Source: Shimia marina (GTDB lineage Bacteria > Pseudomonadota > Alphaproteobacteria > Rhodobacterales > Rhodobacteraceae). From it: a DNA stretch of 64,000 bases. The DNA lies in contig NZ_CYPW01000024.1 in the NCBI RefSeq assembly GCF_001458175.1, positions 1-64,000 on the forward strand. The letters are read 5' to 3'. The notes beneath the pieces were generated by a model that was not told the DNA's origin, made no database searches, and worked only from the letters and a program-made list of their open reading frames with translations. Below are positions 123 to 3,555 of the stretch, piece by piece. The translations under genes were made by a program, and so were the position numbers. Each line of letters opens with the position of its first letter. Position 1 is the stretch's first letter.

Positions 123-1130
123 CTATCGTTGGCGTGATCCTAATAGCAAAACAAATACAAATGCAGCTCCGAGAGAAGTCGTTACGATACCAACGGGCAG
201 CTCCTGTGGCGCTAATAAAAGTCGAGACAGAATATCTGATGCGGTCAGCAAAATCGCCCCGACTAAAGCTGCGGTGGGCACCAGTAAACCGTGTAGCGGT
301 CCAACGATACCCCGGGCGAGATGGGGTACCATCAGGCCAACAAAGCCAATGACACCTGCGACTGAAACAAAGGCAGCGGTTGCGAGCGCCGACACCATGA
401 AGGACATCACTCGCAGCCGGTGTACCGGCACACCAAGACTGGTCGCGGTCAAATCCCCGGCCAGCAACGCGTCAAACCATCGGCGGCGATAGAAAGCATA
501 GAAGAAGATCATAAGCAAAGCGCTGAGAACCAGTGGTAAGGACGCCCAGCGGGACAGGCCAAGCCCTCCCAGCATCCAGAAAATGACGGAATGCGCAGCA
601 CGATTGTCACCTGAGAAAATCAGATAGTTGGTCACTGCCGAGAATAGAAATGATACAGCCAGGCCAGACAATATGAGCTTTTCGGGAGCGCTGGTACGGA
701 GACGTTGCACCAGCAGCAGCACGATGCCGGAGGCGATCATCCCCCCCACGAAGGCGGCTATTGGCAAGGTCCAGATCCCCAGCACATCGCCCGTGATCGT
801 AATCACGAATACCGCCCCTGCTGCGGCTCCGGAGGAGAGGCCAAAGAGGAACGGATCCGCCAGATCATTGCGCGTGGTTGTTTGCAACACAACGCCCACA
901 ATCCCCAAGCCCGCGCCGATGATGGCGGAAAATAGCGCGCGCGGGAAGCGCAGATCAAAGACGATACGTCCCATTGGCGTTGGGTCTGCACTGCTCAGGC
1001 CAAGCCCTGTCGCAATTGCCGACAATGCATCTGCAGCTGGGATAGAGGTTGTTCCATAAAGCACGGACAGAAGAATGAGGGCGGCCAGAACGGCCACCCC
1101 CAAGATCAGTATCAGACCGGTTCGGCGCAT
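123..1130 (-). CDS. btuC: Cobalamin-type ABC transporter permease (BtuC/FecCD family)
   Basis: Integral membrane subunit of a binding-protein-dependent importer, about 335 aa with nine to ten hydrophobic helices. FecCD-family signatures are visible: RNDLADPFLFGLSSGAA in the N-terminal half and GVIGFVGLMVPHLAR in the C-terminal half, the loops that contact the ATPase in this family. The ATG at 1130 lies one base after the stop of the binding-protein gene; a longer reading to 1181 would overlap that gene and adds a non-hydrophobic tail, so it is rejected. It is the last gene of the riboswitch operon. Iron-siderophore permeases belong to the same family; the cobalamin call rests on the upstream B12 riboswitch, not on this sequence. 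Confidence 0.86.
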   Translation of the reverse strand: MRRTGLILILGVAVLAALILLSVLYGTTSIPAADALSAIATGLGLSSADPTPMGRIVFDLRFPRALFSAIIGAGLGIVGVVLQTTTRNDLADPFLFGLSSGAAAGAVFVITITGDVLGIWTLPIAAFVGGMIASGIVLLLVQRLRTSAPEKLILSGLAVSFLFSAVTNYLIFSGDNRAAHSVIFWMLGGLGLSRWASLPLVLSALLMIFFYAFYRRRWFDALLAGDLTATSLGVPVHRLRVMSFMVSALATAAFVSVAGVIGFVGLMVPHLARGIVGPLHGLLVPTAALVGAILLTASDILSRLLLAPQELPVGIVTTSLGAAFVFVLLLGSRQR

Positions 1131-1131
1131 A

Positions 1132-2076
1132 TTAGAACAGATCCGGATGCATCGCGGACGCGACTTTCTGGATGGCATCAATATTGGCGGGTCCAGGTGT
1201 CAGCTCTTCGTAGCGCAGACCAATCCAGCGGCCATTTTTGACAGCATCTGTGTGCTGCATCACAGGATGTTCCTGCAGGAATTTAAATGTGCCCTCTGCG
1301 CCATCACCATTGGAGTAGTCCAGCAGGATCAGGAACTCAGGATTGGATGCGGCAACAGCCTCCCAAGAGGAACGGCCCCAGCTGGTGTCCATGTCATGGG
1401 TGACATTTGTTCCGCCCGCTGCGGCGATCATGGCATCAGGAATAGCGAACTTCCCAGCGGTGAATGGTGCATCGGCTGGACCATCAAGCAGGAATACGCG
1501 TGGCTTTGCCTGATCAGCGGTTTTGGCTTCAATCGCAGCAAGTTGCTCCTTCCAGCCAGACACCAATTCATCAGCTTTCTCAGACACGCCCATTACGGTG
1601 CCGAGACGGGTCACATCATCAAAGAGCAGGTCCATGGTGGCTTCTGGACGGTCCTTGTCCATATGGACACAGCTTTCGGTGAGGACCATGGTCTTGATGC
1701 CAAATGGTGCAAGCGTATCTGGGGTCACGTCACCACCGGGTTTCATGCCGTAATACCAGCCCGCGAAGAACATCTCCGGGGACACAGCCACAAGATTTTC
1801 AACAGTTGGGTATTTGGGGGCCAGTTCGGGGATGTCGCCACGCTGCGTGTCAAAATCTGGGCTTGTTTTGTACCAGCCGGTGATGCCGGTCAGACCAACG
1901 ATCTTGTCCTGCAGGCCCAGCGCAAAGGCCATATCGGTCATGTTCATGTCATGCACAACGATACGTTCAGGGGATTTATCGAAGGTGAGAGTGTCGCCGC
2001 AGTTATCGACGCTGATTTCAGCCGAAGCTGCGCCAGCCAGCCCCAGCACAATTGCTGTGGACCAGAGAGTTTTCAT
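1132..2076 (-). CDS. btuF: Periplasmic corrinoid-binding protein of ABC importer (BtuF-like)
   Basis: A 314-aa substrate-binding protein of the Peripla_BP_2/BtuF fold. It has a signal peptide (basic start MKT, hydrophobic stretch, cleavage after AGAASA). The early motif TFDKSPERIVVHD is typical of the first strand of these proteins, and the 300-aa size fits. Its start is preceded by AAAGGAG, and it lies 12 bases after the ATPase gene. It should capture the ligand in the periplasm and deliver it to the permease encoded next. Heme, iron-siderophore and corrinoid binders share this fold; B12 specificity is inferred from the riboswitch. Confidence 0.85.
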   Translation of the reverse strand: MKTLWSTAIVLGLAGAASAEISVDNCGDTLTFDKSPERIVVHDMNMTDMAFALGLQDKIVGLTGITGWYKTSPDFDTQRGDIPELAPKYPTVENLVAVSPEMFFAGWYYGMKPGGDVTPDTLAPFGIKTMVLTESCVHMDKDRPEATMDLLFDDVTRLGTVMGVSEKADELVSGWKEQLAAIEAKTADQAKPRVFLLDGPADAPFTAGKFAIPDAMIAAAGGTNVTHDMDTSWGRSSWEAVAASNPEFLILLDYSNGDGAEGTFKFLQEHPVMQHTDAVKNGRWIGLRYEELTPGPANIDAIQKVASAMHPDLF

Positions 2077-2088
2077 TTTGTTGCTCCT

Positions 2089-2865
2089 TTAGCGGGTTAT
2101 TTCAGTTTTACGAATATCGAGCGCCGGTATTTGCCGTCCCTCATGGGGTAAAAGCAGATAGTCGACGCCGAATGTCTGGCGTACGGCTGCGGGGGTTAGG
2201 ACCTTTTCAACGGTCCCGAAATCCGTCAGCCGGCTGTCTTTGATGAGAGCCACATGGGTGGCAAATTCCGGGATCATTACCAGATCATGTAAGATTGTGA
2301 CCACCGTGATCCCTAATCCTGCCACCAAGGAGAGCATGCGCCCTTTGGCATCTGGATCTAGGTGATTGGTCGGTTCATCCAGAAAGAGAAGCTTGGGGCG
2401 CTGTACCAAGGCGCGTGCAATATGGGCGCGTTGCTTTTCACCACCGGACAGACGGCCCATCGGCTTGTTCGCGAGATGGTGGATGCCGGTCAGATCCAAA
2501 ATACTGGCAAGTGCCTCTGTGTGCTCGGCATTGGAAAAATCGCCCCAGATCGGCATTTGTCCCAGTGCTACGTAATCTCGCAACATAAGCCGCCCGTCGG
2601 GTTCTGATTGCTGCGAAACGGTGGCTATTTTGCGGGCGCGGTTGAGCGCGCTGAGGCTACGCAGGCTTTGGCCCTCAACCCTGACATCTCCATGGGTGAT
2701 GTCAGCCATACCGGAAAGAAGATTGAGCAGCGTTGTCTTTCCTGCACCATTTGGTCCGGCGATGGCCAGCACAGCGCCTTGCGGCAAATCAAAGCATACA
2801 TCGCGCAGCATCGCATTGCCATTTGGGGCAAAACATTCCAGCCCTTCAACGTGGAGAAACAACAT
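2089..2865 (-). CDS. btuD: ABC transporter ATP-binding protein (BtuD/FecE-like)
   Basis: A 258-aa cytoplasmic ATPase that powers the importer. Walker A is GPNGAGKTTLL near residue 38, the ABC signature is LSGGEKQRAHIARAL near residue 138, and Walker B is LLFLDEPTNHLD near residue 158, followed by the switch histidine in TILHD. This is the normal length and motif order for FecE/BtuD ATPases. It sits six bases downstream of the DUF1636 gene and 12 bases upstream of the binding protein, so all four genes are almost certainly one transcript. Confidence 0.9.
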   Translation of the reverse strand: MLFLHVEGLECFAPNGNAMLRDVCFDLPQGAVLAIAGPNGAGKTTLLNLLSGMADITHGDVRVEGQSLRSLSALNRARKIATVSQQSEPDGRLMLRDYVALGQMPIWGDFSNAEHTEALASILDLTGIHHLANKPMGRLSGGEKQRAHIARALVQRPKLLFLDEPTNHLDPDAKGRMLSLVAGLGITVVTILHDLVMIPEFATHVALIKDSRLTDFGTVEKVLTPAAVRQTFGVDYLLLPHEGRQIPALDIRKTEITR

Positions 2866-2871
2866 CAGGTC

Positions 2872-3225
2872 TTACCTCCCAATAAATAGGGCAGGGAGGC
2901 GGGCAAGGGTCTTGTCTTGTAATGCTACCGGCCGCTCTGTGCTGCTGGTCCATCCAGTTTTGCTGTCAGCATATTGCAATGAGAACTCGGCAAATCCTGC
3001 GATTTCTTGTGGGGTGCTGATCGCGCCAAACAAATAACTGGCTTTGCCTGCGCCCTGAAGGCCAATCACCGGAGGGAAATCGCAGCCAGCGAGGCAATCC
3101 ACCGCCCGAAACTTTGTTCCACTTGGCACATGGCCTGTCAGCGCGGCTTTGAGGTGGCGAGCTTCGCTAGCACCGCAACAGCGGCTACAGATCAAAATGG
3201 TTTGTTCAGATAAGTTTGTCACCAC
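2872..3225 (-). CDS. DUF1636 family predicted metal-binding protein
   Basis: A 117-aa protein of the DUF1636 type, recognised by a CSRCCGASE motif near residue 13 and a second cysteine motif CLAGCDFPP near residue 45, which together resemble a metal or cluster-binding thioredoxin-like site. Proteins of this family are often linked to cobalamin genes; the biochemical role is unknown. Translation appears to begin at GTG (3225), four bases after the stop of a 20-codon leader ORF that carries the only good ribosome binding site nearby, so coupling of the two is likely. It is the first full-length gene of the B12-riboswitch operon. Confidence 0.8.
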   Translation of the reverse strand: MVTNLSEQTILICSRCCGASEARHLKAALTGHVPSGTKFRAVDCLAGCDFPPVIGLQGAGKASYLFGAISTPQEIAGFAEFSLQYADSKTGWTSSTERPVALQDKTLARLPALFIGR

Positions 3226-3229
3226 GACC

Positions 3230-3292
3230 CTAACGTAAAGCCAAACGTGGATCGAAGGTGCCTATTGCGTAAAGTGACTTACGTGGGTCCAT
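3230..3292 (-). CDS. 20-residue leader ORF between B12 riboswitch and operon
   Basis: A short ORF, ATG at 3292 to TAG at 3230-3232, preceded by a near-perfect Shine-Dalgarno AAGGAGG four bases before the ATG. It encodes MDPRKSLYAIG... and ends ...DPRLALR; the DPR tripeptide appears twice. It starts about 43 bases after the B12 box and stops four bases before the GTG of the DUF1636 gene, which has no comparable ribosome binding site. The simplest reading is a leader peptide whose ribosome binding site is the riboswitch's control point and whose translation carries ribosomes onto the operon. Whether the peptide itself has a role cannot be told from one sequence. Confidence 0.5.
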   Translation of the reverse strand: MDPRKSLYAIGTFDPRLALR

Positions 3293-3334
3293 AAAGCCTC
3301 CTTCCAAAGCGCCCCGCCCTGGGTTGGTGAAAGT

Positions 3335-3521
3335 GCAATGGCAGGTCTCCTGACTCGCGGGTCGTAGCTTGGCCAGCCTTCCCAGGAAGCACCCAGTGGC
3401 ATGTATTGGCCTCGCTCTCCGCTCACAGTTGCGGGGGCAGTCACGGATTTGGCGCGTTTGAAAGGCACCGCACCGTGTTCCCTTTTCATTCTTTCAGGCA
3501 TTTGCCTGTCAGAAACCATCG
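3335..3521 (-). ncRNA. Cobalamin (B12) riboswitch
   Basis: On the minus strand this leader carries the conserved blocks of the cobalamin riboswitch in order: AAAGGGAA followed by CGGTG, then GACTGCCCCCGCAACTGTGA, then GCCACTGGG and TGGGAAGGC, and finally the B12 box AGTCAGGAGACCTGCC at about 3340-3355. The 5' edge fits a transcription start near 3520. It represses in response to adenosylcobalamin in this family. It precedes the leader ORF and the DUF1636/ABC importer operon, which identifies that importer as a corrinoid uptake system. Confidence 0.97.
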
Positions 3522-3526
3522 CGGCC

Positions 3527-3555
3527 TAGGTGCAGTACCAAAGAGTTTCTGTCAA
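3527..3555 (-). promoter_or_regulatory. Candidate sigma-70 promoter for the B12 operon
   Basis: On the minus strand a perfect -35 hexamer TTGACA (3550-3555) is followed 17 bases later by CACCTA (3527-3532), a weak -10. Initiation just after this would begin right at the 5' edge of the riboswitch, which supports the assignment. The -10 match is poor, as is common in alphaproteobacteria. Confidence 0.5.

Follow-up and report, generated by a model that had tools for sequence, protein, structure and literature searches.

Organization of the locus

The locus lies on the reverse strand of the window, that is, the whole stretch of 64,000 nucleotides of Shimia marina DNA that was analyzed. Four genes follow one another in the order DUF1636, ABC transporter ATPase, periplasmic binding protein, and FecCD-type permease, an operon that presumably serves the uptake of B12 or a related corrinoid, and a cobalamin riboswitch precedes them (Table 1). 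The riboswitch matches the RF00174 covariance model over its full length, with a score far above the gathering score of 31.5 bits, and is one of seven cobalamin riboswitches in the whole genome. The segment that we take to be the B12 box lies within it. Immediately downstream is a P13 hairpin with a GGGG loop, which is kept in 91 of the 92 riboswitch-DUF1636 loci described below. Cobalamin riboswitches use a kissing interaction, in which the CCCCC loop L5 (within positions 3426 to 3440) would be the probable partner of this loop.

Table 1. Features of the riboswitch-DUF1636 locus in the S. marina window
Feature	Positions	Strand	Basis
Cobalamin riboswitch aptamer (RF00174)	3323..3535	(-)	128.1 bits, E 7.5e-32, full length 1-189
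Presumed B12 box, GCGAGTCAGGAGACCTGCC	3340..3358	(-)	position from sequence
P13 hairpin, GGGG loop	3304..3322	(-)	folds
Leader ribosome site, AAGGAGG	3297..3303	(-)	sequence; four bases from leader ATG
Leader ORF, 20 codons, ATG start, TAG stop, peptide MDPRKSLYAIGTFDPRLALR	3230..3292	(-)	sequence and comparison
Predicted start hairpin upstream of the DUF1636 start, arms GATCCACGT...ACGTTAGGGTC	3226..3253	(-)	folds; covariation in relatives
TGA within DUF1636, relic stop of the leader frame (used by relatives)	3206..3208	(-)	sequence and relatives
DUF1636 gene (likely start)	2872..3222	(-)	PF07845, E 4.2e-16
ABC transporter ATPase	2089..2865	(-)	PF00005, E 4.5e-33
Periplasmic binding protein	1132..2076	(-)	PF01497, E 2.8e-21
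FecCD-type permease	123..1181	(-)	PF01032, E 3.1e-84

The initial annotation had noted that AAGGAGG, four bases before an ATG, serves a 20-codon open reading frame (ORF) rather than the first gene, and the sequence agrees (positions 3303 to 3297 and 3292 to 3230). It was also right that the DUF1636 GTG has no site of its own in this genome, as the anti-Shine-Dalgarno energy is −12.3 kcal/mol at the leader and only −3.3 kcal/mol at the GTG at 3222 and −1.8 kcal/mol at the GTG at 3225. Its placement of the leader stop four bases before the gene holds for the GTG at 3225, which gives a longer reading, but not for the second GTG, at 3222, which is the likely start: this one is supported by homology and lies 7 nt beyond the stop. 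The leader ATG is 70 nt from the GTG at 3222, the same spacing as in most relatives, and the TAG stop of the leader sits in the 3′ arm of the predicted start hairpin.

An out-of-frame ORF follows the riboswitch's ribosome site in most relatives

We collected DUF1636 relatives from 394 family genomes, of which 257 had a match, and from 25 genomes of the genus, of which 22 had one, and added 46 loci from named genomes as well as additional sites. All 29 family loci that were scanned (L009 to L037) have a cobalamin riboswitch immediately before the gene, in the same orientation. Removal of repeats and of loci that lacked a matching B12 box left 92 distinct riboswitch-DUF1636 loci; loci identical over the first 90 or 100 bases of the leader counted as one, and gene starts were chosen by script. 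The set excludes DUF1636 loci with a CCGGGAG-type box (12 loci: 10 with no leader by our rule, 1 in frame, and 1 with a one-codon leader) and loci with no box in the 450 upstream bases (9 of the 20 loci in one added sample; L203 and L210 of the same 20 are also absent). The 12 loci (L007, L097 to L102, L104, L105, and L111 to L113) make up a separate DUF1636 group of the genus, behind a riboswitch whose GCAAGCCGGGAGACC-type box stands about 97 to 108 nt before DUF1636.

At 80 of the 92 loci, here called relay loci, the ribosome site of the riboswitch opens an ORF that is out of frame with DUF1636. The leader start codon is ATG in 78 of them and GTG in 2, and the gene itself starts with ATG in 76. 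Many relatives also have GGAG or GGAGG ahead of DUF1636, unlike the window genome. In 10 further loci, here called direct (L014, L115, L129, L146, L193, L195, L199, L202, L205, and L211; L115 was tested with Pfam), the riboswitch AUG reads in frame into DUF1636 and adds an N-terminal extension (e.g., MDDVPRRPVATPPYSVAQSAPHQILVC); the remaining 2 loci (L022 and L082) have no such site by rule. On a protein tree there are at least four changes among the relay, direct, and no-site states, although the tree is short (about 110 columns) and event counts are approximate.

Four Ruegeria loci (L066, L070, L072, and L079) keep the region of the 28-codon leader described below and have an insert that places the DUF1636 start 205 to 209 nt from the leader AUG; the inserts have in common a word like GTTATAACATTG, which is present in L061 and L063 too. 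Leaders of the kind described here also occur in genome bins labeled Rhizobiaceae, Hyphomicrobiales, and Alphaproteobacteria (L041, L045, and L067).

Selection on the leader frame and stop

Between the leader AUG and the gene start, the leader frame contains a stop in only 3 of 72 loci, compared with 57 and 40 of 72 for the other two frames. By its stop positions, the window is one of the three. Among 30 representatives with less than 75% identity, the corresponding counts are 2, 23, and 17. Four insert-bearing loci were omitted from this 72-locus count, from the folding test of the start region, and from the tree of length changes.

The distance from the leader AUG to the gene start equals 1 modulo 3 in 69 of the 80 relay loci. 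Of the 19 length changes that a tree of 76 relay loci places in this interval, 12 are multiples of three, compared with 2 of 27 in the interval from the B12 box to the leader AUG (P = 7.7 × 10−5 by Fisher's test). The count of 12 of 19 supersedes an earlier tally of 17 of 24, in which ATGATG starts had produced false three-base changes, and one of the 12 frame-keeping changes (L068) depends on a doubtful TTG start. Seven changes break the frame. The leaders of L013, L049, L052, and L061/L063 still stop between −12 and +4 relative to the gene start, and those of L026, L035, and L197 extend 73 to 85 nt into the gene, neither fused to it nor ending near its start.

The end of the leader was traced in the clade to which the window belongs (44 loci with a profile E value under 1e-40, 43 relay and 1 direct; the cutoff omits two loci with similar leaders, L204, which has T at the position discussed next, and L077, which has A and a gene that reads in two frames). 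In 35 relay loci of this clade the leader is in the +1 frame, and in 30 of the 35 it stops exactly 17 nt into DUF1636. The conserved TGA consists of the wobble base of DUF1636 codon 5 and the GA of codon 6. T occupies this wobble position in 34 of the 35 loci with a +1 leader and in 3 of the 9 clade loci without one (P = 7.8 × 10−5), in a recount that no longer chooses loci by stop position, which had made the first count circular. Further along DUF1636, T makes up 20.6% of third positions. On a 30-locus tree, the members of which were picked partly by stop position, codon 5 changed 2 times at the wobble base, 16 times at the first position, and 6 times at the second; 82 other wobble sites changed on average 11.2 times, with a minimum of 4. 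As the third base of codon 5 is frozen while the first base is free, the overlapping stop codon is the best explanation.

The window retains the TGA, although a TAG upstream of it now ends the leader after codon 20, so that the present ORF is what is left of a frame of 28 codons. The 20-residue ORF of the initial annotation is thus present but gives an incomplete picture: it descends from an ORF that ends 17 nt inside DUF1636. Likewise, the proposal that relatives be compared for conservation of this ORF was borne out for an out-of-frame ORF with its ribosome site, at 80 of 92 loci, but not for its peptide codons.

A predicted hairpin at the gene start

The words that recur among leaders coincide with two predicted helices near the gene start. 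In one, GGCA pairs with the region of the start codon; the other is a longer stem that covers the GGAG site. The start structure has a covariation score of 0.268, compared with 0.205 in shuffles (0 of 500 reached 0.268) and at most 0.185 when the structure was slid along the alignment; the scored structure was taken from the fold of a single locus (L057), which favors it against the slid controls. Two cruder covariation measures for this structure, the number of pairs changed on both sides and the number of pair types, did not exceed shuffles. RNAalifold alone predicted only four pairs on the leader, and perhaps sub-clades that use different pairs lie behind this sparse result.

Folding energies point the same way as the covariation score. 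The 42 bases around the gene start fold with a mean z score of −1.51 in 28 loci and −2.04 in 44 others, and gene-interior controls give 0.08 and 0.35. In the window, the start region has a z score of −1.78, and the 166-nt leader taken as a whole does not stand out from shuffles (z = −0.32). Prediction and covariation thus both describe a hairpin that folds the gene start within the leader ORF, as does the coupling hairpin of a ribo-attenuator. As judged by comparison of the relatives, selection keeps the leader frame, its ribosome site, the position of its stop, and the start hairpin, and does not keep the peptide.

A proposed translational relay and its alternatives

These constraints on frame, stop position, and hairpin are those expected if translation of DUF1636 is coupled to translation of the leader, and they lend such coupling indirect support. 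We consider it probable that the riboswitch controls the leader and that translation of the leader gives access to a folded DUF1636 start. The module of P13, AAGGAGG, and AUG would be the single ribosome site under control of the cobalamin riboswitch, and it would start a short ORF without a conserved peptide instead of the first gene, whose own start, 70 nt downstream and in another frame, would be held in the hairpin. When B12 is absent, the leader would be translated and the start hairpin unfolded, and ribosomes would stop at or just past the gene start; these ribosomes, or newly bound subunits, would then initiate DUF1636 and thereby the uptake operon. When B12 is present, the riboswitch would shut the leader site and the gene start would remain folded. 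In the window genome, the shortened leader would release ribosomes 7 nt ahead of the likely start. Translation of the leader, dependence of the gene on it, shut-off by B12, and the respective shares of melting and re-initiation are what we infer from the pattern of conservation.

Two modes seem to be mixed among the relay loci, with a stop near the gene start suiting re-initiation and a long overlap suiting hairpin melting. The leader stops between −15 and +25 of the gene start in 44 of the 80 loci, where the mean strength of the ribosome site is −6.6 kcal/mol for the gene and −11.8 kcal/mol for the leader. The window, with its stop at −7 and its own values of −3.3 (GTG at 3222) and −12.3 kcal/mol, belongs to this mode. 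In the other 36 loci the two sites are about equal (−9.3 for the gene and −8.3 for the leader); 33 of these leaders run 44 to 143 nt into the gene, and 3 end far upstream of it because of inserts. The 33 long overlaps fit poorly with simple stop-start re-initiation. Also weighing against the relay are the three frame-breaking changes with a remote leader end (L026, L035, and L197), the mere four pairs from RNAalifold, and the unremarkable fold of the whole window leader.

The strongest competitor, which we nevertheless regard as doubtful, is a standby site, at which AAGGAGG recruits the 30S subunit for a gene about 70 nt downstream while the leader AUG goes unused and the ORF is incidental. 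There is precedent for this in the Sinorhizobium meliloti metA SAM-II riboswitch, also alphaproteobacterial, whose Shine-Dalgarno sequence, according to the passages of Scheuer et al. (2022, PMC9373788) used here, is needed for a start 74 nt downstream, at AUG2; the 70 nt between the leader ATG and the gene in the window is a similar distance. The metA case differs in that its start codons lie in one frame and its standby model does without leader translation, at least in those passages. A standby site would also leave unexplained the stop-free frame, the frame-keeping length changes, and the conserved stop codon.

It is improbable that the leader matters through its peptide, be it a functional small protein or one that stalls ribosomes. 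Some residues recur in the set of 28-codon leaders (e.g., GTF and RL), but the recurring words overlap the hairpin arms, and leader length varies widely. Mean pairwise differences among 28 gapless loci are 0.41, 0.47, and 0.42 at codon positions 1, 2, and 3, so that there is no third-position excess that would reveal coding selection on the peptide (permutation P = 0.64), and neither a conserved peptide nor a conserved codon run of the kind found in stalling leader peptides was seen in the 28 loci. We rejected a peptide or codon-sensing role on this absence of a third-position excess. Nor is there support for a suggestion in the initial annotation that two DPR tripeptides in the window leader might matter: besides this result, the pair is not shared, and GATCCACGT, which codes for the second DPR, forms the 5′ arm of the predicted hairpin.

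Programmed +1 frameshifting, which would join the leader to DUF1636 and yield an N-terminally extended protein as in the direct loci, is very unlikely. The 10 of 92 loci that read in frame from the same AUG and the single-base offset of the leader in 69 of 80 relay loci would suit it. Against it, the codons at the leader end are variable, with no common slippery word recognizable by eye, the gene has its own ATG in 76 of 80 relay loci, many with a ribosome site, and the window leader terminates ahead of the gene. Equally unlikely is a chance ORF behind an ordinary riboswitch, with DUF1636 starting by itself, because short ORFs are indeed common (15 of at least 20 codons overlap positions 2900 to 3500 on both strands), but a ribosome site, frame, and stop that 80 of 92 loci conserve are not expected of such an ORF.

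Comparison with known systems

The initial annotation knew of no leader ORF in such a position, but one has been published: the B12 riboswitch of Mycobacterium tuberculosis ppe2 acts through an upstream ORF, uPPE2, mainly by termination-reinitiation (Kipkorir et al. 2024, PMC11260477; only passages of this paper are drawn on here). As in ppe2, the ribosome site within the expression platform at our loci belongs to a short ORF in another frame, and the next gene, in the window genome, lacks a ribosome site of its own; these loci would be a variant of the ppe2 type of riboswitch-controlled relay. The differences are several. For ppe2, experiments showed that gene expression needs leader translation (PMC11260477); here such a need is proposed. 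Stop and start overlap as AUGA in ppe2, unlike the stop at +17 here and at −7 in the window. The ppe2 case concerns one organism group with a partly conserved upstream ORF, compared with 80 loci from many genera here. A covarying start hairpin is predicted here and is not described for ppe2 in those passages, and some relatives start the gene directly from the same AUG, unlike ppe2. Stops shifted 3 or 6 codons past the ppe2 gene start lowered expression strongly (PMC11260477). This counts against the relay, as the conserved stop here is at +17; at such loci, hairpin melting may do more of the work than backward sliding of ribosomes.

An engineered ribo-attenuator (Folliard et al. 2017, PMC5496857, passages) likewise combines a riboswitch with a short leader ORF, a hairpin that covers the ribosome site after it, a stop-start junction, and a gene. 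That device is synthetic, with a 150-bp leader, a TAATG junction, and an addA or btuB switch, whereas the leaders here are natural and maintained by selection. In the M. tuberculosis pe20 Mbox, a riboswitch likewise directly controls a conserved small ORF before an operon (D'Halluin et al. 2026, PMC12810186, passages); it differs in sensing Mg2+, in an upstream ORF that is highly conserved and has a homologue elsewhere, and in the use of Rho-dependent termination.

In the literature searched, which excluded most subscription papers and bioRxiv, no description of a leader ORF downstream of a Rhodobacteraceae B12 riboswitch turned up. The principle of a B12 riboswitch acting on an upstream ORF is known from ppe2 (PMC11260477). 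What is new here, at the level of sequence comparison, is the other stop-start geometry, the covarying start hairpin, the wide conservation, and the alternation with a direct form.

Leaders behind other B12 riboswitches

To gauge generality, 85 riboswitch sites from 41 genomes were read by hand, two of them without a recognized box. A ribosome site 46 to 72 nt past the B12 box usually opens a real gene: about 16 are CbtB-like (2 tested with Pfam), 5 are of CbiM type (1 tested), 1 is CobW (tested), and 3 are direct DUF1636 genes (1 tested). At 6 sites it opens a short ORF instead. These are the DUF1636 loci L003 and L117; the binding-protein operons L151 (with an ATGA overlap) and L156, Pfam-tested; L114, ahead of an unnamed family of about 100 amino acids; and L189, with no Pfam match, an ATGA overlap, and a CCGGGAG-type box. 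As a short ORF and a real gene alternate at the same site, the leader ORF occupies the place that a gene takes in the family's other B12 riboswitches.

A follow-up of two families gave a mixed picture that is no more than suggestive. In the family of about 100 amino acids (L002/L212 and L213 to L222 among them), a B12 box is present in 11 of 14 loci and the leader frame is mixed: by our reading of the 11 boxed loci, a +1 leader occurs in 5 (in one of them our rule recognizes no ribosome site), a +2 leader in 3, an in-frame start in 1 (again with no site by rule), and none of these in 2. Among the 12 loci closest to the binding-protein-first operon, 7 have a box, 4 of these 7 (L226, L228, L230, and L233) have a leader with irregular ends, 4 have no box in 500 bases, and L232 has too little sequence.

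Two other riboswitches of the S. marina genome were noted along the way. A second B12 riboswitch (L002/L212, contig C15) precedes a gene of about 100 amino acids that has no Pfam match; the leader there is similar, and the start site reads GCGGAGGGCGC. Another (L006, positions 154867 to 155071 of contig C1) lies ahead of a gene that Pfam assigns to Rieske-type ring-hydroxylating oxygenases; the gene at L158 looks similar.

Biological meaning

We give about even weight to a broader reading, in which the B12 riboswitches of this family, Rhodobacteraceae, share a fixed landing pad for ribosomes, made up of P13, a ribosome site, and an AUG about 48 nt past the box. Evolution would use this pad in two ways: a gene may begin directly on it, or a leader ORF free of sequence requirements may begin there and pass the switch on to a structured gene start downstream. 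They would then form a natural modular ribo-attenuator, present in many genera and before more than one operon. If the relay is real, the target of a translational riboswitch can be a disposable reading frame that selection keeps throughout a family, and such leaders would be missed both by annotation and by surveys that pair each switch with the next gene. Engineered ribo-attenuators would also gain a counterpart in nature, in about 80 variants that differ in stop position, frame, and hairpin, and experiments on these could separate coupling by hairpin melting from re-initiation.
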